Source: Eucommia ulmoides (Eukaryota > Streptophyta > Magnoliopsida > Garryales > Eucommiaceae). Taken from it: a stretch of DNA of 64,000 nt. The notes beneath the pieces were generated by a model, which worked only from the letters and a program-made list of their open reading frames with translations, had not been told where the DNA came from and did not search any database. The stretch is taken from assembly GCA_016647705.1 (NCBI GenBank), contig CM028330.1:53060897-53124896 (forward strand), written 5' to 3'. Below, one piece after another: positions 6,000 through 50,023 of the stretch. The position numbers were made by a program, and so were the translations under genes. Position 1 is the stretch's first letter. The number at the start of each line of letters is the position of its first letter.

Positions 6000-8900
6000 T
6001 AGTTGGTGGATCTGAAGGATGGTAGGTAGATACGGGTGCCTCACGCCATGTCTGTTATGATCGTGCTATGTTCAAAACTTATTTTGAAAGTGAAGATAAG
6101 AAAGTATTGCTGGGTGATTCCTACTCCACTATTGTTGCTGGTTCTGGTGACGTAGAATTGAAGTTTATCTGTGAAAATATGGTCATTCTTAAGGATGTTC
6201 TACATACCCCAGAGATGAGAAAGAATTTTAGTTTCGGGCTATCTTCTTAACAAGACAGGGTTCACTCAAACTATCGGGGCTGATTTGTACACCTTAACCA
6301 AAAATAATATTTTTGTTGGGAAGGGTTATGCAACTAATAGAATGTTCAAACTGAATGTTGATGCTAATAAAAAAAATTCTTCTGCTTATATAATGTGTTC
6401 TTTTAATATTTGACATACTAGACTTTGTCACGTTAACAAACGCATTATTAAAAACTTAAGTAACTTAGAACTAATTTCTAAATTATCTTTGAATGATTCT
6501 GAAAAACGTGAATTTTGTAGTCAAGCTAAAATTACCAAAATCTCTCATAAATTAGTAATTAGAGAATCTGAATCTCTTGACTTGATACATTCTGATATTT
6601 ATGAATTTGATGGTGTCTTGACTAGGAATGGTAAATGCTATTTTATTATATTCATAGATGATTGTTCTGATTATACTTATGTTTTTCTTATGAAAAATAA
6701 AAGTGAAGCACTTGATATGTTTAAATTGTTTGTGATTGAGATTGAAAATCAATGCAATAAGAAAATTAAGAGGTTGCGGAGTGATAGAGGAACCAAATAT
6801 GATTCTGATATGTTTATTGAATTTTATAATTCTCATGAGATTATTCATGAAAAAAATGCACCCTATTCTCCTGAAATGAATGGTAAGGCAGAAAGGAAAA
6901 ATAGAACTTTTGTTGAATCTGTAGTTGCTATTTTGCTTAACTCTGGTGGGGTGAGATTTTATTGACTGTTTGTTATGTGCTTAATAGAGTTCCCAAATCG
7001 CATAGTAAAATTTCACTGTATGAAGTTTTCAAAAATAAGAAATCAAATTTGTCTTATTTTAAAACTTAGGGTTGTTTGGCATATGTTCGGATCCCTGATC
7101 CAAAAATGAAAAAACTTGCTAGTCGAGTTTATGAATGTGTTTTTATTGGTTATGCTGTGAATAGCAAAACTTATAGATTTTACGACTTGCATGATCATGT
7201 TATTATTGAATTTAATGATACTGATTTTTATGAATATAGATTTCCGTTTAAATTGAAGAATAGTGGGGGCTCGACATCTAATAATATGCCTATCATTAAA
7301 ATTAATGAGCCTGATAATAAATTAGAATTTGAACCTAGAAAAAGTAAACGGACTAGTATTGCTAAGGATTATGGTTCGGATTTCTTTGCATATACTTTAG
7401 AGGAGGATCCGCACACCCTCCAAGAGACATTGTCCTCTATAGATGCCAATTTGTGGCAAGAGGCCATAGATGATGAAATGGTCTCTCTCGAGTCAAATAA
7501 AACTTGACATTTAGTAGATTTACTTCCTGGTTGTAAAACAATAGGATGTAAATGAATTTTTAAGAAGAAATTGAAACCCGATAGAACCATTGATAAATAT
7601 AAGGCTCGTCTAGTAGCCAAAGGGTTTAGACAAAGAGAGAATGTAGATTTCTTTAATACCTTCTCACCTGTCTCTAGAATTACTTCTATTCGTGTGCTTT
7701 TATCACTTGCTGCTATTCATGATCTTATTGTGCACCAAATAGATGTTAAAACTGCTTTTTTAAATGGTGAATTAGAAGAAAAGATTTATATGGATCAACC
7801 TAAAGGATTTGTTATTCCTGGTCAAGAAAACAAAGTATGCAAATTATAGAAATCTCTTTATGGTTTGAAACAAGCACCTAAGCAATGACATGAGAAATTT
7901 GATAATCTAGTCATTTCACATGGTTTTAAAGTAAATGAAAGTGACAAATGCATATATTATAAATCTGAAAATGATATTTGCACTATTATATGTCTTTATG
8001 TGGATGACTTGCTGATTTTTTGTTCTAATATTCATATTGTGAATAATGTAGAATCCATGTTATGTGCTAATTTTGACATGAAAGATCTTGGTGAAACAAA
8101 TGTAATTTTTGGTATTAAAATAACTAGGTCTAAACATGGAATTTCTTTGGATCAATCTCATTATATAGAGAAGATTCTAAAGAAATACAATTTTTTTTTT
8201 AATTGTAAATCAGCATGTACTCCTTATGACCCTAGTGTGAAGTTGTTCAAGAACATCGGTGACGGTGTTAGACAATCTGAGTATGCCGGCATCATAGGCA
8301 GTCTTCGATATACCACTAATTGCACTAGGCCCGACATAGCGTATGCTGTGGGATTACTATACAGGTTTACAAGCAGACCTAGTATTGAGCATTGGCATAC
8401 TATTGACAGGATCATGAGATACCTAAAAAGAACTATGAACCTTGGATTACATTATCAGAAGTTTCCCGCTGTTCTGGAAAGATATAGCGATGCTGATTGG
8501 AATACTCTTTTAGATGACTCCAAGGCAACTAGCGGTTATATATTTAGTATAGCTGGTGGAGCTGTTTCTTGAAAATCTAAGAAACAGACTATTTTGGCTC
8601 AATCTACTATGGAGTCTGAGATGATTGCACTAGCTTCGGCTTGTTTAAAACTGCTTTTTTAAATGGTGAATTAGAAGAAAAGATTTATATGGATCAACCT
8701 AAAGGATTTGTTATTCCTGGTCAAGAAAACAAAGTATGCAAATTATAGAAATCTCTTTATGGTTTGAAACAAGCACCTAAGCAATGACATGAGAAATTTG
8801 ATAATCTAGTCATTTCACATGGTTTTAAAGTAAATGAAAGTGACAAATGCATATATTATAAATCTGAAAATGATATTTGCACTATTATATGTCTTTATGT

Positions 8901-9849
8901 GGATGACTTGCTGATTTTTTGTTCTAATATTCATATTGTGAATAATGTAGAATCCATGTTATGTGCTAATTTTGACATGAAAGATCTTGGTGAAACAAAT
9001 GTAATTTTTGGTATTAAAATAACTAGGTCTAAACATGGAATTTCTTTGGATCAATCTCATTATATAGAGAAGATTCTAAAGAAATACAATTTTTTTTTTA
9101 ATTGTAAATCAGCATGTACTCCTTATGACCCTAGTGTGAAGTTGTTCAAGAACATCGGTGACGGTGTTAGACAATCTGAGTATGCCGGCATCATAGGCAG
9201 TCTTCGATATACCACTAATTGCACTAGGCCCGACATAGCGTATGCTGTGGGATTACTATACAGGTTTACAAGCAGACCTAGTATTGAGCATTGGCATACT
9301 ATTGACAGGATCATGAGATACCTAAAAAGAACTATGAACCTTGGATTACATTATCAGAAGTTTCCCGCTGTTCTGGAAAGATATAGCGATGCTGATTGGA
9401 ATACTCTTTTAGATGACTCCAAGGCAACTAGCGGTTATATATTTAGTATAGCTGGTGGAGCTGTTTCTTGAAAATCTAAGAAACAGACTATTTTGGCTCA
9501 ATCTACTATGGAGTCTGAGATGATTGCACTAGCTTCGGCTAGTGAGGAAGCAGGGTGGGTAAAGAGCCTGCTTTTTGATATCCCTTTATGGGAGAGACCG
9601 ATTCCAACTGCATTGATCCATTGCAATAGTACCGCGACTATTGCAAAGATTCAGAACCGTTATTATAATGGGAAAAAACGACAAATACGTCGCAAACACA
9701 ACACTATTGGGGAGTATATTTCTATAGGGGCTATGAGAGTGGATCATGTATGGTCTGATGATAACTTAGCCGATCATTTGACAAAAGGATTAGCTCGAGA
9801 AAAAGTTTACAAAACATTGAAAGGAATGGGACTCAAGCCCATGGATTGA
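6000..9849 (+). pseudogene. copia pol region (fossil)
   Basis: In order: a DTGAS protease-like motif near 6030, a pre-integrase domain near 6400, an integrase core at about 6560-6960, reverse transcriptase from about 7570, and an RNase H region ending at 9849. Reverse transcriptase words include VHQIDVKTAFLNGELEE and LYVDDLL; the RNase H end contains WSDDNLADHLTKGLA. The frame is broken many times. A segment of about 0.9 kb covering reverse transcriptase and the start of RNase H is present twice in direct order. Confidence 0.85.
7740..9545 (+). repeat. Internal direct duplication of about 0.9 kb in copia pol
   Basis: Two tandem copies of about 0.9 kb, starting around KTAFLNGELEE and ending around the IALAS part of RNase H, appear identical by eye. 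The LTRs of the same element differ at many places. The duplication is therefore either much younger than the insertion or an assembly artefact. Confidence 0.85.
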
Positions 9850-34561: not shown

Positions 34562-34832
34562 GCTATTGGCGACTCAGTGCGCTGTCATGGGAAGCCCCAC
34601 TCGAAGCCCAACCACAAGCCCCGTTATTCACTTCCGCCGCTGAAAGACTCTTCGGATGTTTCTCAGTCGGTTTACCAGCGGGAGTAGCCGCAGATTTCTT
34701 TGTCAAGACGATGAATCGACGACAGATCGTAAGAAGGCCATTGGGGATTTGCCGAAAAAAGGTAAGGAGATGGTCTTCAGCTACAAGCTGAAGGATTTGT
34801 TCGTTTGTTCAGTGGCTTGGGATAAGGAGGTG
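34562..34832 (+). pseudogene. Host-gene fragment, unrecognised (left part)
   Basis: About 270 bp of non-retroelement coding-like sequence. A first frame reads KPHSKPNHKPRYSLPPLKDS, then the reading shifts by one base near 34665-34675 to a frame giving SRRFLCQDDES and AIGDLPKKGKEMVFSYKLKD, then FVCSVAWDKE at the border with the LTR at 34833. The downstream remainder seems to lie at 46921-46960, beyond a 12 kb retrotransposon cluster. I do not recognise the protein; the basic, Ser/Pro-rich start suggests a nuclear or regulatory protein but proves nothing. The visible frameshift and lack of an upstream ATG mark it as a pseudogene fragment, perhaps carried by a Mutator-like element whose right end is at 46961-47117. 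Confidence 0.5.
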
Positions 34833-35334
34833 TAGACACAACATTTTGACCGCCCCGCAAAAATTCTATACTTTATTTTATAGTTAACTTTGTGTTATTT
34901 AACTTTGTTTTTATTTTATTTTATTCCAAAAAATACAAAATAGTTAAAGAAAAAGAAAAATAATGAAATAAAAATAAAATGAGTGAAATTGAAAAAAGAA
35001 AAAATTGGGGAGAAGAGGGTCGCATATTCAAATTGTGAGAGCAAGAATAGAAGAGAGAGAGAGAGAGAATTCGGTGGGCCCCCTAGTCCAACCAAGAAAG
35101 GGAGGAAATAGAGAGAGAAAGTGAGAGAATAGATAGAGAATCGGTTGGGAGGGAGAAAAGAAAGAGAGAGTAGTGTGGTGGGTCCCACTTTGACTTGTCG
35201 ACTCTTACACAAAAAAAAAAAAAATAGGGGCAGTTACCAAGAAGTCCTCATATGAGGACAAAACTACCAAATACATCTTTTTTAAAAACGTGTTACAAAT
35301 AGTCATTTTGCTTTTTTGTGACGATTTTACCCAT

Positions 35335-35560
35335 CGTGTTATATTCAATACGAGGATCGTGTTATATTCAACACAATCTCAGATCATGTTACCTTCAACA
35401 CAATCTCAAATTGTATTATATTCAACACGATCTCATATTGAATATAACACGACGTCGTGTTACATTATAATTTTTTCATTATTCAACACAATCTCAAATC
35501 GTGTTATATTTAACACGAGTGTGCTGAATATAACACGAAATCGTGTTACATTCTAATTTT
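35335..35560. repeat. CGTGTTATATTCAACACGAT minisatellite
   Basis: About eight imperfect units of 20-26 bp, in both orientations, containing CGTGTTATATT and CAACACGATCTCA. A further unit lies near 35825. It lies inside the Pack-MULE. Confidence 0.75.
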
Positions 35561-36025
35561 TTCATTCAAAAATGATAATTTCTCTCCTACATTCATATGT
35601 TTGATTTTACAAATAAAAACTAAATCAATCCAACCAAATGAACTTTAAATTCCATTCAAACCAATTTATCTCTTCTACATTTGCTTGATTTTTACAATAC
35701 AAACCAAATCCATCCTAAATTCCATTCAAATCAACCAAATCAATACAAATCCTGGATCAATACAAATCAACCAAAGCAATACATTGAATCAATTAAAAGA
35801 GAATATGATCACTTTGTTCGTCTTGAACACGATCTCGTGTTGAATATAACACGAAATTGTGTTACATTCATTCAAATTGATAATTCTCTCTCCTGCATTC
35901 ATATAATTGATTTTTATCCATACAAACTAAATCAATTCAACCAGATGAACTATAAATTCCAATCAAATTAATTAAAGCAAATAAACCAAATCAATACAAG
36001 ACCTAGAAAAATCAATTTGCTTCAC

Positions 36026-36244
36026 CTTTTTGGCACCGTAAGTGGTGAACTCTTGAAGAGAAATTGTTTGACCCTTCTTCTTCGACTTGGTTGTGGCGGC
36101 GGCGAATAGGAAAAGGAAGTCAGAAAGCGCCACCGAACCTGGGGCATCGTTTCCGCCAAACGCCTGCTTGAGCTCCGATTCGAGCTCCTCGGAATCAAGG
36201 GCCCACGCCCCTGGCTTAGCCCAAGAGCTCACTGTTGCCTCCAT
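36026..36244 (-). pseudogene. Captured first exon of a plant eIF4B-like gene
   Basis: An ATG at 36242-36244 opens 73 codons, with WAKPGAWALDSEE near the start and TTKSKKKGQTISLQEF near the end. It stops in phase at AAG|GTGAAG, a plausible splice donor. Plant eIF4B-type and related glycine-rich initiation-factor proteins begin with a W..(P)GAWA(L)D..E motif and have a (D)FPSL..A...K.KKK..(S)L.EF segment, which this matches in order. Here the segment reads DFLFLFAAATT, so the usual FPSL core is lost. Only the first exon and a CT-rich leader are present; no second exon lies downstream within the element. The family call is from memory and is moderately certain. The exon is a captured fragment, not a working gene. 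Confidence 0.55.
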
Positions 36245-37329
36245 GCTTCTCTCTCTCTAGCGCTTCTCTCTCTTCTGCGTTACGTTGTGAAATTGCTACG
36301 AAATTGTGATTTCCGAGGGTTCGTCTCAAACACGATCAATTACTGTGAAATTTGTTTGTTTCTTACTTTACGAAAAGCAAAGTAACAACAGCTACAACGA
36401 GTACAAATACAACATGTTCACCGACTACGACAAGGCTATAACAGCTCACCAACTATAACAAGGTCATCTTCATCGACGTATATGAAGGTGTTCGGGTACA
36501 ACAATATGTTGTGGAAGTTTCAAATCATGATGGTCGGAGTTTCAGATCTGCCCTTCGTCGTCGTTCGTCGCTTCTTGATTCGATCTGCTGGTTCGAGGAA
36601 GGCGATTCGATTCTATTTTAGATAGTAGATATATTGAAGATCCCATTAAAAGTCCAATGGGCATCACTAATTTCTCCTCATAACGAAAATCATCCAAGAA
36701 GAAAAGTTGAAAACCCCTAAAATTTCTTCTGAGGTCGGTCTCTTTCTCTCTCTCTCCCCTGTTTGGTTGTTTTTCACCAATTGCTTCATCTAGTTAAATT
36801 AACTAATTGCAAGGGTTCCGACGACATTGACGGCGCCGGTGATGACGGAGAGCAAGGACTATGGAGGAAGAGGAAGATTGCGAGAGGGAGATGAGGAATC
36901 TACAAGAGTTATGGTTGAAGATAGGCGGTAATCTAAAGAAGGCGAAACAGTGAAGAAGGGTAAATTCGTCACTTTAAAATATTTAGGAGTATTTGGTGCA
37001 ATCAAGCACTTTTTATGGGACTATTTGGTGCAAAAAAAACATTATGGACTATCTTGTAGATTTGTTAATTTAACAAGACTATTTAGTATTTTTCTCAAAA
37101 AAATAAGAAAGAAAGTAGGAAGGGGCCACCCCACGTGGCAGATCGAGGAAGGGCAGTAGAAAAAACTCTAAAATTCTAGAAAATTCTTTTTTTTAGCCTT
37201 TTTTTTTCAATTTTACCCTTTCTCAGTCCAATTTGGACTGGGCTTTGGCGGCCAGACATAGTTTTGAGGGTTTCCTAAGTGTTTTTACGCCTAATATTCT
37301 CCTATAAATAGGACCCTCCTATTCGTTAT

Positions 37330-37620
37330 GAGTCCTTTTTTTTCATTACTCTAAACGATCTTCTAAACAGACACTTGTTCGTCATGAGTATTGTCATGAG
37401 TCTCTGTTTTTTATCATTCTAGACGATCTTCTAAACCGACATTTATTCATCATGAGTATTGTCATGAGTCTTTTTTTCATCATTCTAAACGATCCTCTTA
37501 ACAGACACTTGTTCATCATGAGTATCATCTTGAGTCATTCTTTTATCACTCTAAACGATCCTCTAAACGAACACTTGTTCATCATGAGTATCGTCATGAG
37601 TCATTTTATTTTATTTGTTT
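37330..37620 (+). repeat. Tandem repeats of about 65 bp (block 1)
   Basis: Four to five units of about 60-66 bp containing CTAAACGATCCTCTAAAC and CTTGTTCATCATGAGTAT. The same unit forms the blocks at 42845-43056 and 44350-44500, all near the 3' end of internal regions of the gypsy-type elements. Confidence 0.85.
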
Positions 37621-37722: not shown

Positions 37723-40184
37723 TGTAGATACGACATTTTGACTGCCCTATAAAAATTTATGTTTTATTTTATAGCTAACTTTGTTTATTTAACTTGGTTT
37801 TTATTTATTTTATTTCCAAAAAATCAAAAAAACATATATAAAAAAATTGAAATGAAATAAAGGGAGTTAAATTGAAAGAATGAGAAAAAAGGGGATTGAA
37901 TGTGAATAAGAGGAAAGATAGAGGAGAGTGGGGCCCCTTTTGGGTCCAAACCATGAAGTGTGAGAGAGAAATAGAGGAGAGAAAGATGAGAGAGAGCCGA
38001 GAGAGGAGAGGTAGAGAGAGTGAGAGAATGTATGAGAGAGAGTGAAAATTATATGCATCAGTGGGCCCCTCTTTTTGCCTTATCAGTGTGTGTGTGCATG
38101 TAAAAAACCAGTAGGCCTCTTTCTTTTACCATGTGTGTGTGAGTGAGAATGAGAGAGAGAGAGAGGAAAAGAGGTGGGAACCCCTGCTGCCATGTGTATG
38201 TGTGTGCACGTGAGAGAGAGTGGAGAAAGGGCCAGCGGCCCACTGCCACGTGTCGTCGACTGAAAGGCGGCGGACAGGCTTGTTTCCCTCACACGCCCAA
38301 AACCCTAAGGGATTTCTTTGCCCTTTTCTTCCAATTTTACCCTTTCCTAGTCCGACTTGGACTGGATTTAGGCGGCCAGACTTAGTTTTTAGGGTTTCCT
38401 AAGTGGTTTTCATGTCCCATCTTCTCCTATAAATAAGACCCTCCTCCTTCTAACTGATTCATTCAGAAATTGAGAGAAAAAAACCCTTAGTGAGTGATTC
38501 TCATCGTAAACCCTTTTAAAAAGCTGTTTGCACGAGAGGAAAAACCCAAGTATCAGGATTCTTGGCCTAGAACATGTATGTTTTTTTATTTTAATTCTTT
38601 TTTCAGTTTATTTTATTCTTTTCGCAATTTAAATTCCTGCAAATTTTATTTTTTTAATTGTTCGATGACTCGATAAAAAATGTCAGGATAAGATTCTTTA
38701 TTCTCAATCTGAATCTTTGAACGTTTAAACGAGGACACTATCTCACTATTTTTTTATTTTTTGCATTTATTTATTTATTTTGTTTACAAATTCATAAAAA
38801 AATTAAAAAAAATAAGTTGTCTGATGATCCGATGAAAACGTCGGGGTGGACTTCTCGTGTGGAACTTAATCTCGAACGTTAGGTGAAGGATGTTTGACTC
38901 TTTGTTTTTCTGTTTTTATTTTTATTTTATTTTAATTATTATTATTTTTTTCCTTACAAAATTCTTTAAAAAAACAAAACAAAAAAAACACTAGGATGAT
39001 GAGCCTGCCCAATTTAAGAAAGACAACTTTTGCTTACACTGTTTCCTTTCTTTCTAATTTTTGCTTTTCATTTGTCTTGAAAAGAAATCATTGTTTTTTC
39101 TTGTTTTGAAAACAATTGATACAACAAGTTGTTTTTTGTTCTAGTTTTTAAATGCAAATTTGAGATAAGGAAACAGTGACGAATTGGGCGGTCATTATTT
39201 TTCATGTTCACTATTCTGGATTTGTTTCTTTTCAATGAAATAATAATAATAATAATAATTAATTGTTTTGTAAAAATTAATTCCCACAAGCCTTAAGTTG
39301 AATTCAACGATTCAAAACATTGAAGAAAAGATTTCTCTACTGACAATTTGATTCTCCAAATAAAATAAATTTATAAAATAATCGGTTTAGTAAATCATTT
39401 TCCTTCACCGAGTTGTTTCGTTGAATTTTATTTAAGTTTTGGTAGAATTAATTTTGACAAAACGCGTTTCCGTGATATTCCCTTATTCTTACTTTCATAG
39501 AATTTAAGGGATTATTAAATTGAAATTTCTTTAAATTAATTGGACAAATTAAGAAAGTTGGCATTTTGTGACATTGCATTTGTAGAAAATTTATATCATA
39601 TTTCACGTCATTTTGCATGTTGATTTTGCATCACTTAGAAAATATTTTGACTTGCCCACTTCAATTCAAAGAATTTCATCGGAAACACATATAAAAACAC
39701 TGTCGGGGACCATTCTTATCGAATCCTTAATATTCGATAAGAGGTTATACCGGAGGAACATTTCAAAAAATCCAAAAACTTGTCCTACCTTATTTGTGAA
39801 AATACCAAAAAGATTTTATAAGAAGAAAATGATTTCAAAATAAAATAAAACACTTGGACTAAACTAATTGGACATAAGATACCGTTTTTGAACGGACATC
39901 TTGGGATGCCTAACACCTTCTCCGAGCGTAACTGACCCCCGAGCCTTTAAATGAATCTTTGGTTGATCGTGTTTTGAAGTCAAATTTTACTTAGGTCTTT
40001 TAAATTTCTTTTCTAAAAATTCGGTGACCTAGCACACCATTTAAATTCAATACTAGGTGGTGACTCCTTATTTTTTTAAAAACGGCCTAAGTATTTTTTG
40101 AAAACTGACGCTTTAAAAACTCCCTCTCCTTAAACTTATTTATTATTATTTTTCTTCTTTGGAAAAACGGGTCGGGTCGGGTCA
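37723..40184 (+). repeat. Second LTR of the gypsy-type cluster
   Basis: About 2.46 kb, starting TGTAGATACGACATTTTG after AAAGAGAGGCAGC and ending GGGTCGGGTCA before the primer-site-like TGGCGACTCC. It contains a TATA-like CTATAAATAAGACCCTCC near 38427. It aligns by eye with 44626-46920, with many differences, so it is old. Confidence 0.75.
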
Positions 40185-43056
40185 ACTGGCGACTCCACTA
40201 GGGATAATTAGAGGGTCGAACCTAATATGTCCAAATAAGTCCAGCTATACCATGTCCGAATATTATATTTTATTTTGTTTTCTTTTCCTTCTATTTTTGT
40301 AAATAAATTGTGATGTTTTCTCTTTTCTTTCTTTTCTCTCGGGCTCTTATATTGTTATAAAACCTCCGACACAAGTACAGTTGTCTTGTATTCATATTAT
40401 CCCCACAGGATTCTATGAGTACGAATGGATTTTAAGACTACCTAAGACCCATGTCAACTAATAAATGGGTCTGTTGTAAGAACAGGATGAGACAGAAAAA
40501 TTGGTCCCAGAAAAGTAATTTCGATTCTCCCCATCCAAAGTCAGGTCTTTACTCGCAGCCAGGCCTAGACTCATTCCAGGATGACATTAGAAAGTAATCT
40601 TGAATATCCCCGTACGCCCAGATGGCTCGAATGCAGGAAACCATCGACATGCTGAGAGAAAGGATTAACGAACTTAGTCGACCTCAGGAGGTGCTTGTCC
40701 TTCCATCTAGTGAAACTCATGTGACTGAATCACAAATTGGAAACCCTCCAAGTGTCGGGATGGAAAACTCAGTGCCGAATTCGAACCTTGTCGACCCAAA
40801 CTTCGTGGTTTCGGTCTACTATGGACCTCAGATAGTCCATCACCCTTTCATCTATAGAGCTCCAGCATATCCTAGCCAATGGCATGTCTATCAAGTCTCA
40901 CCCAATGGCCCGACCCCTTCTGCACTACAAATCGTCATTTACTCGGAGAGGGTCGTTGCTCCACCAAGGATCCAATAGCCAATCAACAGGCCTCGACCAT
41001 CGAAATCGAAAACAGAAATAAAAAAAATAAAAATAAATAAATAAATCTAAAATGCTACAAAACCAGGGTTTTTGTTTATTTTCAATTTGCTAGGTGTTTT
41101 TGATAAAAATAGGAAATCTTCACGTACTCACCTTTCCATTTCGTTGGTCTTTTGGATGAAAAATGATTTGTTCTGTAATGGCTTTTTAAATTTCAATAAT
41201 GCAATACTGTTTATCCAAAACTGTGATCTAATGTTTGAATTTTACTATTTTAGGTGCTCAAAATTGCCTGCATATATTGTATGTGATGTAACCGAGCTAG
41301 GACGTGAAAGTATGATTTCAATACAGAGCTAGACCACGATCCAATAGGACTAGAAACAAAGAAAGATTTTGTTTAGCCAAACGATGGTGAGATCTAAAAG
41401 GCCCTTGACCAAATCCGATAGCAATTCCAGAGTATCGGGGGATTTGAAAGTCAAGATTGGTATCCCTTGTCCTAACGATGCTTTGATATATTGTTGCAAG
41501 CTGATCAAACTATCTCCGGTTGTTCTTTAGTGATTGATAAAATTGGGTGTAAATATCATGGTTCGCCTGTTGTCTGAGTTACCTAATGGCGAAAAGAGAA
41601 CACAATCATCCTAGGTCAATGATCCCAATGAAGAAACTCTCAAATGTTGCAAGAAGGTCTCCATTCGCAAAGAAGATCAAGTTCATTGATAAGCTCGGTT
41701 GCCCCTGAACCATCGCAAGTTCGATCATCTATTTAAAAAAAATGAAAGAAAAAAAAAGGAAAAAAAAAAAAGAAAAAAAAAGTGAAAATGTGGAGTAACC
41801 GAGTAAGAAGTGTTGGTGCAAATAAGAAAGAGATTAGACGAGGAAAGAAAGATGATAGTTTCATCCGTTCAAGGTTTTCGCCTCAACTCAATTTGGCAGG
41901 CAAACAACGTTTTTCGGGATCAGAACTTGATGGATTTGAATGGAATCAGAATTTGTGGAAAAAAACATTGGTCGTGGTTGGGAAGTGTATTGGAAGCATA
42001 TTTCTTGGCAATCCGACTCAAGATCTCACAGAAAATTGTATCAGGCATTAAAGGTACTCGTTTAGTAATTTTTTACATTTGCCTTTTTTTTTTACTAAAT
42101 CAATTTTGCAGGACTTGAGAAAACACAAAGTATGTAGGAGTATTAGAATCCCAAGTATCAAAGCACCTAAAAATTATAAAAGACAAAACTCCAGTCAAAC
42201 AAGTCAAGGAGACCTTTATGAGGCATGTTGAACCCTCCCCCTGAGTTGAAAAGTGAAATCTCGAAAATTAAAAAAAAAAAAAAAAAGGTCTCATCGAATC
42301 ACCCCAAGACATGTTGTGCCCTGAGTTGGAAAGCGAAGTTTATAAATTCAAATGGAAGAATCTCCCGATATGCTTTGATCCAAGCACGATCACCCGAAGC
42401 GATTATGGCCGAAAGGGGGGAACGGAATTGTGAGTCATCAAAGATAACAATTTTTCAGACTAAAATTTTGTTTTGAAAGTGTTATTTTACAGAGATCTCA
42501 AAAGGACTGGAAGCATGAATTTCCCTATCACTAGGGTTTTTTACCTTCCTCCTGACTCAAATTGGAGATTCTTATTGCTGAAAATTCAGAAGCTCTAAAT
42601 GAGCATCCGGGTATGCGTTTTGCCCTAAAATGGACGTCAAGTGAACTACGCTAAACCTAATTCTCGGCGTAGTATTAAGGTATGTAGGCAACTTGTAAAG
42701 ATTCGGTCATTTGAGAGTTGGCTGGGGTACATTTTATATCTTTGCTCTCTCATATTTGCTCAGCCAAAAACTGGGGCATATTCTATGCCTCTGGACCTTT
42801 TTTTGTCCCCCAACCAAGAGGGCTTAGGCTTGAGCTATTTTCTATCACTTTAAACGATCCTCCAAACGAACATTTGTTCTTCATGAGTATCGTCATGAGT
42901 CATTCTTTTATTACTATTAACGATCCTCTAAACGGATACTTGTTCATCATGAGTATCGTCATGAGTTATTCTTTTATTATTCTAAACGATCCTCTAAACA
43001 GACACTTGTTCGTCATGAGTCTTTTTTTTATTACTCTAAACGATCCTCTAAACGGA
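40185..43056 (+). pseudogene. Internal region of the gypsy-type element (fossil)
   Basis: It starts with the primer-site-like TGGCGACTCCACTAGGG. The stretch 40622-40978 encodes a gag-like segment (MQETIDMLRERINELSRPQ). The remainder to about 42840 has gag-like scraps but no recognisable protease, reverse transcriptase or integrase. It is a broken or non-autonomous element; other open frames in this region are not genes. Confidence 0.55.
42845..43056 (+). repeat. Tandem repeats of about 65 bp (block 2)
   Basis: Four units of the same CTAAACGATCCTCTAAACGG...CATCATGAGTATCGTC type as block 1, running up to the insertion point of the solo LTR at 43062. Confidence 0.85.
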
Positions 43057-43061
43057 CATTT

Positions 43062-44344
43062 TGTAATATCCTAAAAATTTATATTTTATTGTTTTATATC
43101 TTTGGGATTGGTTGTAATTGATGGTATAAATAAATATTTAATAATTTATGCGGGTTGAAAGTGTAATTTTAAGGTCTAATAACAATATTATGTAATACTT
43201 GGGGGTATTTGTGTAATTTCAAACAAAAATCTTGCATGCATTGCATGAAAGTTAGAACATGTGTAAGGGCTACCTAGTAGGTTGGAAACGTGTGAAAGAA
43301 AATGAGAAAGGAAGAAGATGAGATGGGTATGTGGGTCCTATTTTTGTTTTATCATTATAATTGTGTGTTCTGAAATTGGTTTTGGGGGGAGGGGAGGAAG
43401 TCAAAGCAAATAATGGTGTAAGAGGCCAACCCATATGGGTAGATGGAAAGAGAGCTGAAAGATTGAGAGGGGTGGGTCCCACGTGTATGATATTACACTA
43501 TACATATTATCATGCGTAAATAAATAAGAGGGAGCCGAGAGATTGAGGGAGGAAAGAGCAGATAAGGCGGACGACGCAAAAATAAAATAAAAAAGACAAA
43601 GTGAATAGGCAAAAAAAAAAAAAAAAAAAAGAGGAAGAATAGTAACAGGAGAAATATAATTTCCAATTATAATTTTTAGATTCAGGTAGAATTTTTAACT
43701 CTTTTAATATACGTATTTAATGTTCCTATTGTGTAATTCATGCATGCTATTATTGTTAAATTTTAACTGTTAAATTTTATGAAATAATTATGATTATGTG
43801 AAAATTATGTGGGAATCATGCTAAGGTGTTTTATTTGTCGCGTTAATTAAATGTACGTATTAGAGGGGTTGGAGTTCTACTGAGTGTTGGCTCACAACCC
43901 CACAGTTTTGGTTGCAGGACTAGTGAGGACGAATCGACGCCGAAAATTACATTAGAATTTCTACTTGTAATAATGGTAGTTAATATTTACCGTTGTAAAA
44001 ATTGACTCGATAAATTGAATATAATTATTGTCGTCATTTTTAAATCGATAATTATAACTGTTGCATTAGTTGTAAATTTTCTCCGATTTATAATGGATAT
44101 TCGGTTTTAGTATTAAGGGCCGGTAAGAATGAGACGGCGATAAAAAATTTATTTGAATATTTAATTTATAATAATTGTACTGATTATTCACCATAGAAAA
44201 ATCTGATTCGGTAGATCAATATTTATCACCATCGCATGTAAAATTTTTCAAATTTTTATTAAATAGAGACTAGTGATTCGGTTTAATGTTAAATTATTTA
44301 AGGGGAGAAACCGCGTGGCGGCCCAGGGAAACCGGGCCGTTACA
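43062..44344 (+). mobile_element. Solo LTR with 5-bp TSD
   Basis: It starts TGTAATATCC and ends GGGCCGTTACA, flanked by a perfect duplication CATTT (43057-43061 and 44345-44349). It is 1,283 bp with no coding sequence. It interrupts a tandem repeat array of the gypsy-type element, so it arrived later. Its late part (ACTGAGTGTTGGCTCAC) and its end resemble those of many plant Ty3/gypsy LTRs. A related fragment is at 1454-1745. Confidence 0.85.
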
Positions 44345-44349
44345 CATTT

Positions 44350-44505
44350 GTTCATTATGAGTATCGTCATGAGTCATTCTTTTATTACACTAAACAATCC
44401 TCTAAACGGACAGTTGTTCGTCATGAGTATCCTCATGATTCATTTTTCTATTACTCTAAACGGACACTCGTTCGTTATGAATATTGTCATGAGTCATTTT
44501 ATTTT
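44350..44505 (+). repeat. Tandem repeats of about 65 bp (block 3)
   Basis: Continues the array of block 2 after the solo LTR, with about three partial units, and leads to the purine tract at 44612-44624. Confidence 0.8.
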
Positions 44506-44625
44506 ATTTATTTTGTCGTTGAAAAATGCACTTTGAAAAAAAAAATTAGAAAATGAGACGTTCCAAATAACGTGATCTTTTATCTTCGTCAAACAAGTAG
44601 AATTCGCATGACAAAGAGGGGCAGT

Positions 44626-46920
44626 TGCAGACATGACATTTTGGCTGCCCCTAAAAAATTATATGCTTTATTTTATAATTAACTTTGTGTTATTTAACTT
44701 TGTTTTTATTTTATTTTATTCCAAAAAATACAAAGTAGTTAAAGAAAAAGAAAAAAAAAATAATAAAAAAAAAAGGAGTGAAATTGAAAGAAGAAAATAT
44801 TGGGGGGAGGGGGGCCGCATATTCAAATTGTGAGAGAAAGAATAGGAGCGAGAGAGAGAGAATTCGGTGGGCCCCTCTAGTCCAACCAAGAGAGGGAGGA
44901 AATGAAGAGAGAAGGAGAAAAAGTGAGAGAATCCGTTGGAAGGGAGGAAAGAAAGAGAGAGTAGTGTGGTGGGTTCCACTTTGACTTGTCAACTCTTACA
45001 CAGAAAAAAATAAAAAAGAAAGTGGGGAGGGGCCACCGCCACGTGGCAAACTGAGGAAGGACGGTGGAAAATACTCTTAAAATTCCAGAAAATTCAAAAA
45101 AAAAAATTAGCCTTTTTCCCAGTCCAAACGGCCAAACTTAGTTTTGAGGGCTTAGTAAGTGTTTTCTACACTTAATCTTCTTTTATAAATAGGAACATCC
45201 TCCTCTTAATTTATTCATTGAAAAATTGAGAAAAAATATTTCTTAAAGAGTGATTCTCATCATAAATTCTTTTGTGAAGTTGTGTGCGAGAGAGAAAAAA
45301 CACGAGCATTGAGATTCTTGACCTATAACATGCATGTTTTCTTATTTTTAATTCTTTTTTCAATTTATTTTATTCTTTTCGCAATTTAAATTTCTGCAAG
45401 TTTTATTTTTTTAATTGTCCGATGACTTGATGAAAAACGTCAGGATGAGGTTCCCCATTCTCAATCTAAACATTTGAGCGTTTAGATAAGGACACCAGCT
45501 GGTATGTGTTTTTTTTTGTAATTCATATATAAAAAAAAAAAGGGTCGTTCGATGATCCAATGAAAACGCCGAGATGGGTTTCTCGTGTAGAACTTAATTC
45601 CAATTGTTAGGTAAATGATGTTTTATTGTTTATTTTCTGTATTTTTTTATTTTTTTTTTATTCTTGTTATCAAAACCCTAAAAATAAAAAATAAATAATC
45701 TAAAAATAATAAAATATTTGTTTGTAGAAATTAATTCTTACCAAACTCATGATGAATCCGACGATTCAATAAATCTAAAAAAGTTTTCCATGGTTTCGTT
45801 TCCATTCCTCGACTCGTGTAGAATTTAGAAACAAATGATTTTAGGAAATTTCTTTCCTCAGTAAATTTTTCATGAGATTCCGCTTAAGTTTCAGAAAAAT
45901 TAATTTCAACAAATATTGTTTCCGTGAACCTCCCCTTAGTTTAAATATTCATAAAATTCGAAAAAAATTCAAATCGGGATTTCTTTAAATTAATTGGACA
46001 AACTTAAAATAGACACTACTTGCATCCATCTAACATATTTTTTTCTTGTATCATTTAGATACTTTCTTCACTTTCACTTTTTTATATTTCATGCATACAA
46101 ATTTTTTATTTTATAATTAAAATTGCTTCTTCATATTTAGTCACGACACATACACTATTTGCATTTTTTATTAAATAATTAAATCATTGTCACTCATAAT
46201 CACATTAATGCACGTAGTGTTCCCTGTTTAATCCTCGTATTCATATCATCCTATATTGGCATATTTAAATTAAACTCTTTAGTTTTTTTGGTCACTTTCG
46301 CATAAATAAAATAAATTTCATATAATTTTAGTTTCTGCATTTATATTTTCATATTTATTCACTTATTTTAGTTTACCTATTTAAAATAAAGAATTCTCTT
46401 GGAAACATATATAAATACCTCCCAGGGACCATTCTTGTTGAATTTTTAATATTCGATAAGAGGTTATATCGGGGGGAACATTCCCCAAAAAAATACATAA
46501 ACTTGTCCCACTTTATTTTTAAAAAATACCAAAAATATTTTATAAGAAAGAAAAGATTTTAAAATAAAATAAAACATTCGGACTTAAATTAATTGAATTT
46601 AATTGGACATAAGATGCCGTTTTTGGATAGGCGTCTTGGGGTGCCTAATACTTTCCCTGAGCGTAACTGACCCCCGAACTTTTAAATAAATATTTGGTTT
46701 GACCGTGTTTTTTTGGAGTCAACTTTTACTTAGGCCTTTTAAATTTACTTTCTAAAATTCGATGACCTAACACACTATTTAAATCCAATCTTAGGTGATG
46801 ACTCCTCAATTTTTTTAAACGGCCTAAGTATTTTTTGAGAAAAACTGGCGCTTAAAAAACTCCTCTCTCCTTAAGCTATTTATTATTTAATATTTTTTCC
46901 TCTCAAAAAGGGGCACGTCA
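44626..46920 (+). repeat. Third LTR of the gypsy-type cluster
   Basis: About 2.3 kb, beginning TGCAGACATGACATTTTGG after AAAGAGGGGCAGT and ending GGGGCACGTCA. It runs collinear with the second LTR (for example CCGATGACTTGATGAAAAACG, GAGCGTAACTGACCCCCGA). Confidence 0.75.
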
Positions 46921-46960
46921 GAAGGCAATGAAGACGATACACAAAGGGGAGAAGAAGTAA
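46921..46960 (+). pseudogene. Host-gene fragment, unrecognised (right part)
   Basis: Directly after the last LTR, GCAATGAAGACGATACACAA... reads AMKTIHKGEKK and then TAA (46958-46960), in the frame expected to follow WDKE at 34832 if one copy of the GGAGG/GAAGG duplication is counted. It therefore looks like the carboxy end of the same fragment as 34562-34832. Short, so only moderately certain. Confidence 0.4.
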
Positions 46961-47117
46961 GGAAGGAAGGCTAAAATTGTCATTTCGAAAAAAATAAAAA
47001 CTGGCTTATGCAAACTAGCGCCTTATAAAAGATTATTGTATGCAAAAAAAAAAGGTTATGGGTTCATCTTGTAGATTTAACCTTTTAAGTGAACTCTTTT
47101 GGTATTTTTTCCTATTT
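46961..47117. mobile_element. Right-end arm of a Mutator-like element
   Basis: AAGGCTAAAATTGTCATTTCG, then CTTATAAAAGATTATTGTATGCAAAAAA, then CATCTTGTAGATTTAACC and GGTATTTTTTCCTA run parallel to the right arm of the Pack-MULE at 36955-37096 (AGGGTAAATTCGTCACTTT, CAAAAAAAACATTATGG, ATCTTGTAGATTTG, AGTATTTTTCTC). It is probably the right end of a related element that once carried the gene fragment 34562-34832/46921-46960. No left end was found. Confidence 0.45.
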
Positions 47118-48877: not shown

Positions 48878-50023
48878 TGATTTATATCATTTTTTTATCG
48901 TAAATCAAATATCTACCTTATCATTTTACAAATATCAATCAACTCTTTTCATCATTTTTTTTACGTAAAAAAACATAAATACTCTTATGTTCTTTTTGAA
49001 AAAACTAATATTTTTATTTTTATAAAAATTCATTAGTATCCTTTATTTTTAAAATTATACATTTTACAATTAACTTCAAAATAATTTTATTCACCTTCCA
49101 CCCTATCTCACCCTCCCACCACCACTACCCCCGCCTCGCCTACCGCCACCGCCGGAGTTTATGAGCGAAATTTGGTAAAACTGAAAGTCACGATCATTGA
49201 AGAGAGAGAGGCGGCAAAAATCCGCTATAGATTTGTGGCTCAAGCATAGATCCACCATAGCGCTTGGATCCCCTCCACATCAAATTCAGATCCACTTTCT
49301 TTGTTCTCAGACTCAAACTCAGGTACATCATCGCCTCCTTCTCCAATAAGTGAGCTAGTCCTAGGATGTGTTCGATCTCGTGCGCCACCGCCAATTCCAA
49401 GTCGACGGCGACCTTTGACGACTCTGATTCGAGGTCCGCTTCCCACGTCTCCGTTGCATCAAAGTGTAACCTCCCGTTCTCTGGCGAAAAAATGTGTACT
49501 AACACCCCCACCACCCCGTCGAACAGTTCCCCATCGCCGTGGTCACCGCTCACGGCGCAGATCCGCGCCATGGATCTATGTTGCGAGCACAAATCAGCCA
49601 TGGATCTATGCACTGATCCATCTCCATGGCGGAGAGAGAGAGAGAGAGAAAAAAAAAAAATTAGTGGTGGAGTGAGAGAGGGAGGAGATGAAGAAGGTGA
49701 AGGGTTGCTTCAATTTTATTTATTTTTTTGTTAAAGAAAGGGGATCAAAAAAATATTTATTTTTTTAAAATGAGGATGTTGGTGTAAAAAAATAAAAGAT
49801 GAAAAAATGTATAACAAATTTAAATGGTTATTTATGTATTTTAATTTTTAAATAGTTAAGGGTAAAATTGTCATTATAATAAAATATTTATTAATTTTTT
49901 ATTTATAAAGGAGGTAAGTGGTTTTTGATCAAAATGATAAGGAGATTGACTGATATTTATAAAATGATAGGAGAGATATTTGGTTTAGGACAAAATGACA
50001 GGAGAGGTATGTAGTATAAACCC
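48878..50023. mobile_element. Mutator-like element carrying a metalloproteinase fragment (family A copy 2)
   Basis: Left arm (about 48878-49075) and right arm (about 49740-50023) are inverted. They share GATTTATATCA/GGTTTATACTAC at the tips, AAATATCTACCTTATCATTTT/AAATATCTCTCCTATCATTTT and AATATCAATCAA/AATATCAGTCAA. The arms recur at 150-1140 and 51830-52055. The interior holds a fragment of a plant matrix metalloproteinase gene on the minus strand, so it is a Pack-MULE-like element. It lies within an LTR. Outer duplications are masked by TA-rich sequence. Confidence 0.65.
49194..49613 (-). pseudogene. Captured plant matrix metalloproteinase (matrixin) fragment
   Basis: The frame contains FSPENGRLHFDATETWEADL and then AHEIEHILGLAH, the HExxHxxGxxH zinc site of matrixins with all three histidines and the catalytic Glu. 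EKEAMMY follows in place of the Met-turn, and then LRTKKVDL. Plant MMPs usually read FSP.NGRFHFDA, VAVHEIGHLLGLGHS, EAIMYP.I..RTKKV, DD(V/I)EGIQ.LYG. The matching tail DVEGIQALW lies in the next frame (near 49255-49280), so a frameshift separates them. No signal peptide or cysteine-switch propeptide is present. Only part of the catalytic domain was captured. It has no start of its own that fits the family and is best called a pseudogene fragment inside a Mutator-like element. Confidence 0.75.

Follow-up and report, generated by a model that had tools for sequence, protein, structure and literature searches.

The window analysed here, a 64,000-nucleotide stretch of the Eucommia ulmoides genome, is AT-rich (GC 0.337), and in it an element of 1.87 kb, carrying a short coding fragment on the minus strand, lies within an older repeat of LTR type (Table 1). 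An earlier reading made from the sequence alone (the sequence-only reading) had described this element as a Pack-MULE, that is, a non-autonomous Mutator-like element harbouring part of a gene, which had captured an eIF4B-like first exon and entered an old gypsy-type LTR. With regard to the host, the repeat begins with TG at 34831, 37723 and 44626, and purine-rich tracts precede the starts at 37723 and 44626, while a PBS-like word, TGGCGACTCC, occurs at 40187 and is a putative primer-binding site. These repeats after purine-rich tracts, together with the PBS-like word, are the basis on which LTR anatomy is recognised, and that part of the earlier description stands; the gypsy label, which calls for a gag-pol of that type, is not shown, as two ORFs near the repeats returned no Pfam match. 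From 37723 to about 46913 the sequence has two ends that match each other at 68-80%, which fits a putative old LTR element adjoining the partial LTR that hosts the insertion. The insertion itself precedes, by about 200 bp, a TATA-like box identified by eye at 37303. Past this box, tandem repeats of about 69 bp occupy 37320-37615, and matches to them were seen at 42829-43061 and 44344-44508 upon self-comparison of the window. Two further features lie at a distance: a head-to-tail duplication of 899 bp (7746-8644 and 8645-9543, 99.9% identical) in a region labelled copia-like by eye, and a stop-to-stop frame on the minus strand (49197-49709) with a matrixin-type peptidase domain (E 1.4e-20).

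Table 1. Positions within the window of the element, its parts and the related sequences.
Feature	Positions	Strand	Remarks
Partial old LTR-like repeat hosting the element	34831-37320	+	Span includes the insert
Target-site duplication (TSD), left copy, AAAAAAATA, 9 bp	35218-35226		Word occurs once where the flanks join in the sister repeat
Inserted element	35227-37096		1870 bp
Left terminal arm, diverged	35227-35345	+	Best non-training match (35235-35337) of the two-arm profile, E 0.15
AT-rich interior bearing direct repeats and CGTGTTATATTCAACACGA-like palindromic repeats	35333-36012		Taken as the element's own sequence
Largest eIF4B capture, if flanking repeat-like sequence marks the borders	36013-36318	-	Leader no longer than 74 bp, with up to 13 bp beyond the exon
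GT donor of the exon	36025-36024	-	Sequence reads GTGAAG
Captured first-exon-like fragment, N-terminus of plant eIF4B family	36026-36244	-	73 codons, PF06273
Internal stretch, GC 0.34-0.52 in 100-base steps	36338-36934		No Pfam family in 36245-36960
Right terminal arm	36935-37096	-	101/165 positions identical to the second MULE-type end, E 2e-6
Target-site duplication, right copy, AAAAAAATA, 9 bp	37097-37105
Sister repeat lacking the element (related empty site)	44626-45201	+	AAAAAAATA at the junction, 45004
Second MULE-type end, related to the right arm	46943-47113	-	No accepted partner end or TSD

Terminal inverted repeats (TIRs) of MULEs usually measure 100-500 bp, and the two arms of this element, in inverted orientation, are about 119 bp (left) and 162 bp (right) long. 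The sequence-only reading had called them diverged inverted arms, and both inversion and divergence are indeed found, even though the likeness is weak when considered alone. In a three-arm alignment, left and right arm are identical at 64 of 116 positions (about 55%). Among 1000 dinucleotide shuffles, 8 scored at least as high as the best local alignment between them (25), as did 21 of 1859 random pieces of the window, and in that alignment the arms are offset from register by about 30 bp. When scores anchored at the ends were compared with 3000 random position pairs, the number of pairs that equalled them was 32 at 20 bp, 404 at 30 bp, 46 at 50 bp, 70 at 110 bp and 155 at 140 bp. An inner block of 18 bp (35318-35335) is 89% complementary to 36955-36972. 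Taken alone, the inverted arms are hence suggestive, not strong. The right arm, on the other hand, clearly aligns with another Mutator-like end in the window, the one ending at 47113, in the same orientation and with E-values of 1.6e-6 and 2.1e-6 in the two search directions. A two-arm profile made from these two ends, with the left arm left out of training, gave 105 matches across the window when E-values up to 5000 were allowed, and the best of the 103 that were not training sequences was the left arm, inverted. As this match lies within 8 bp of the end that the TSD defines, on the inner side, we infer that chance is a less likely explanation for it. With the second end alone as query, the left arm was the best remaining match (E 10), while it was absent among the first 7 matches of the right arm alone; the left arm alone met the right arm solely through a short block in its inner part (E 28), which ranked below an unrelated site (E 2). 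No single arm-similarity result is strong by itself, and the low identity between the arms as well as the outcome of both single-arm searches count against a Pack-MULE assignment. So does the identity of more than 75% between TIRs that was required in a published screen, though for coding MULEs (PMC3903597). For the second MULE-type end, a partner was sought over 12 kb upstream of 47113 and none was accepted; the left end at 46523, the only one among the best 12 candidates with an exact 9-mer partner, was rejected, as the sequence around it is homologous to the LTR repeat.

The poor match between the arms, in which this element is unlike plant Pack-MULEs, could also mean that we are dealing with the same element in a non-TIR subclass of MULEs, with ends that were never well matched, which would be compatible with the Pack-MULE reading. 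A class of non-TIR MULEs whose two ends show low similarity is described (PMC3903597), and the element resembles it in this respect. However, both arms share their end pattern, in inverted orientation, with the third end in the window, which sets the element apart from non-TIR MULEs, and old TIRs diverge too. Assignment to that subclass is possible, but on balance we find it rather doubtful.

The coding fragment proposed by the sequence-only reading, an exon of 73 codons running from an ATG to a splice donor, was recovered as such. On the minus strand, a frame of 90 codons (35972-36244) is open, and its first 73 codons precede the GT donor with no stop. In 100-base steps, the GC content over the exon is 0.52-0.60, and the exon thereby stands out from the element's left part, where values of 0.21-0.34 were measured. 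Sequence resembling the internal repeats of the element is found on both sides of the exon. On one side, 35978-36012 is identical to the internal repeat at 35727-35761 at 29 of 35 positions (0 of 200 shuffles as good), and at 31 of 45 when the comparison is widened to 45 bases (1 of 200); on the other, 36319-36337 matches the internal segment 35816-35834 at 17 of 19 positions (1 of 200). The latter border, resting on one such match, is the weaker of the two. Because element-like sequence appears to resume at 36319, 74 bp upstream of the ATG, the captured leader would be correspondingly short, and the suggestion that a host promoter could have travelled with the exon is not supported by the arrangement of these repeats. 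A longer, promoter-bearing capture, made of the eIF4B leader and upstream control sequence reaching towards 36934, might be argued for given that no source was identified for 36338-36934 and that this stretch is lower in AT than the element's left part, but the match to internal sequence so close to the ATG speaks against it, and we deem it unlikely. Matches to sigma-70-type promoters were discarded as meaningless for a plant.

An open frame as long as the exon has a probability of about 5% at the exon's own composition, and it is hence the protein-family match that carries weight. The Pfam plant eIF4B family (PF06273) matched the 90-residue ORF with an E-value of 1.9e-6 and 27.7 bits, and the 73 residues alone with an E-value of 2.2e-6, which supports the eIF4B identity that had been proposed. 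The score is 0.3 bits below the whole-protein cut-off of 28 bits, and this counts against the overall reading. It could be envisioned that the exon derives from some other protein with a similar short N-terminus, as the match spans 63 of the 502 profile positions and falls slightly below the cut-off. The E-value, however, and the fact that the match (residues 7-73 against profile positions 4-66) begins almost at the start of the profile and ends, within a 90-residue ORF, at residue 73, directly before the predicted donor, make such a source very unlikely. Searches for relatives of the exon yielded 146 pattern matches in bacterial and archaeal genomes and 15 in viral contigs, none of which was confirmed, and a plant gene is not expected in either set. 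Solved structures gave no match at E up to 1, and our literature search found no paper that joins the terms "Pack-MULE" and "eIF4B".

In the remainder of the interior, no transposase was detected, in agreement with the sequence-only reading, within the frames scanned. These were six-frame translations, with X at stops, of 35227-36060 and 36245-36960, in which no transposase family was found, and six chosen ORFs, likewise negative, that covered parts of 36061-36244 and 36961-37096 and thus some, not all, of the frames there. Two weak Pfam matches in the left part of the element (E 0.03 and 0.05) belong to unrelated families and were taken as chance. The CGTGTTATATTCAACACGA-like palindromic repeats beside the left arm (35318-35560) are predicted to form a very strong RNA fold (z -8.41, with 0 of 200 shuffles as good). 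The stretch 36338-36934 contains TC-rich sequence with a leader-like appearance. It is possibly a second captured piece; a search for a second captured gene in all six frames of 36245-36960 returned no Pfam family up to E 10. A likeness of 36245-36934, on the reverse strand, to the internal repeats was set aside, given that 96 of 200 shuffles were as good.

Whether the 1.87 kb were truly inserted is a question that the duplicated word proves little about when taken alone, because AAAAAAATA is common in the window (34 places on the plus strand), its left copy adjoins an A run, and pairs of identical 9-mers at the spacing of the TSD number 4, this one included, against about 3 expected from nearby spacings. 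Decisive support comes from the related empty site. Self-comparison of the window showed that 34828-35227 matches 44623-45018 at 88%, and 37097-37320 matches 45004-45201 at 69%, and that the two matches overlap on the sister repeat at 45004-45018. When the flanks were joined and aligned to the sister repeat, the match was continuous across the junction, where one AAAAAAATA is present; the left flank (34831-35226) had 350 identical, 39 mismatched and 6 gap positions, and the right flank, to about 37320, had 164, 35 and 42, respectively. As the sister repeat aligns in this manner with a single copy of the word, the 1.87 kb very probably arrived by a genuine insertion that duplicated 9 bp, as had been proposed. 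Slippage in the A-rich tract or chance as the source of the 9-bp repeat, for which one could cite the frequency of the word and of such pairs as well as an A run that is 5 bases shorter in the sister repeat, is extremely unlikely, since variation in the length of that run does not yield a second copy beyond 1.87 kb, since the paralogous repeat aligns on both sides while lacking exactly those 1.87 kb and one AAAAAAATA, and since the right arm resembles the second end at 47 kb. The nesting of the element within the repeat also bears out that it is younger than its host; it provides no absolute age.

Based on the related empty site, the 9-bp TSD, the relative of the right arm, the profile match of the left arm, the eIF4B match, the lack of a transposase family in the frames scanned, and the step in GC at the exon, we consider it highly probable that the element is a Pack-MULE with poorly matched ends and an eIF4B-family exon. 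According to this model, the element is a Mutator-like DNA transposon, 1870 bp long and non-autonomous, whose cargo would be a small piece of a plant gene of the eIF4B family, namely the first coding exon with at most a few intron bases and a short leader. Gap repair or template switching at a parent gene elsewhere would have supplied this piece; as models for capture, PMC8277862 names gap filling and template switching. The element would then have inserted into the older LTR-type repeat, duplicating 9 bp of target, with mobilisation in trans by a transposase supplied from elsewhere. Most likely, what we see today is an inert relic.

By itself, this is an ordinary element of a well-described kind. 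Like plant Pack-MULEs, it has inverted ends, no transposase found, a gene fragment inside, a GC-rich capture in an AT-rich frame, and a TSD that falls inside the range of 8-11 bp given for MULEs (PMC4858842). Unlike the coding MULEs of maize and rice, few of which are reported inside other transposable elements (PMC3903597), it sits in an LTR-type repeat. Our analysis adds one gene-fragment capture in which the order of events can be read from the nesting, with the repeat first and the element later, and in which the empty target site and a second related end lie within the same 64 kb. It is highly improbable, in our opinion, that the leader and the exon with its donor are transcribed and provide a neighbouring gene with a new first exon, or give rise to small RNAs directed at the parental eIF4B gene. 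Expression of the exon, if it occurred, would offer a test of whether fragments of this sort regulate or reshape a core translation factor.
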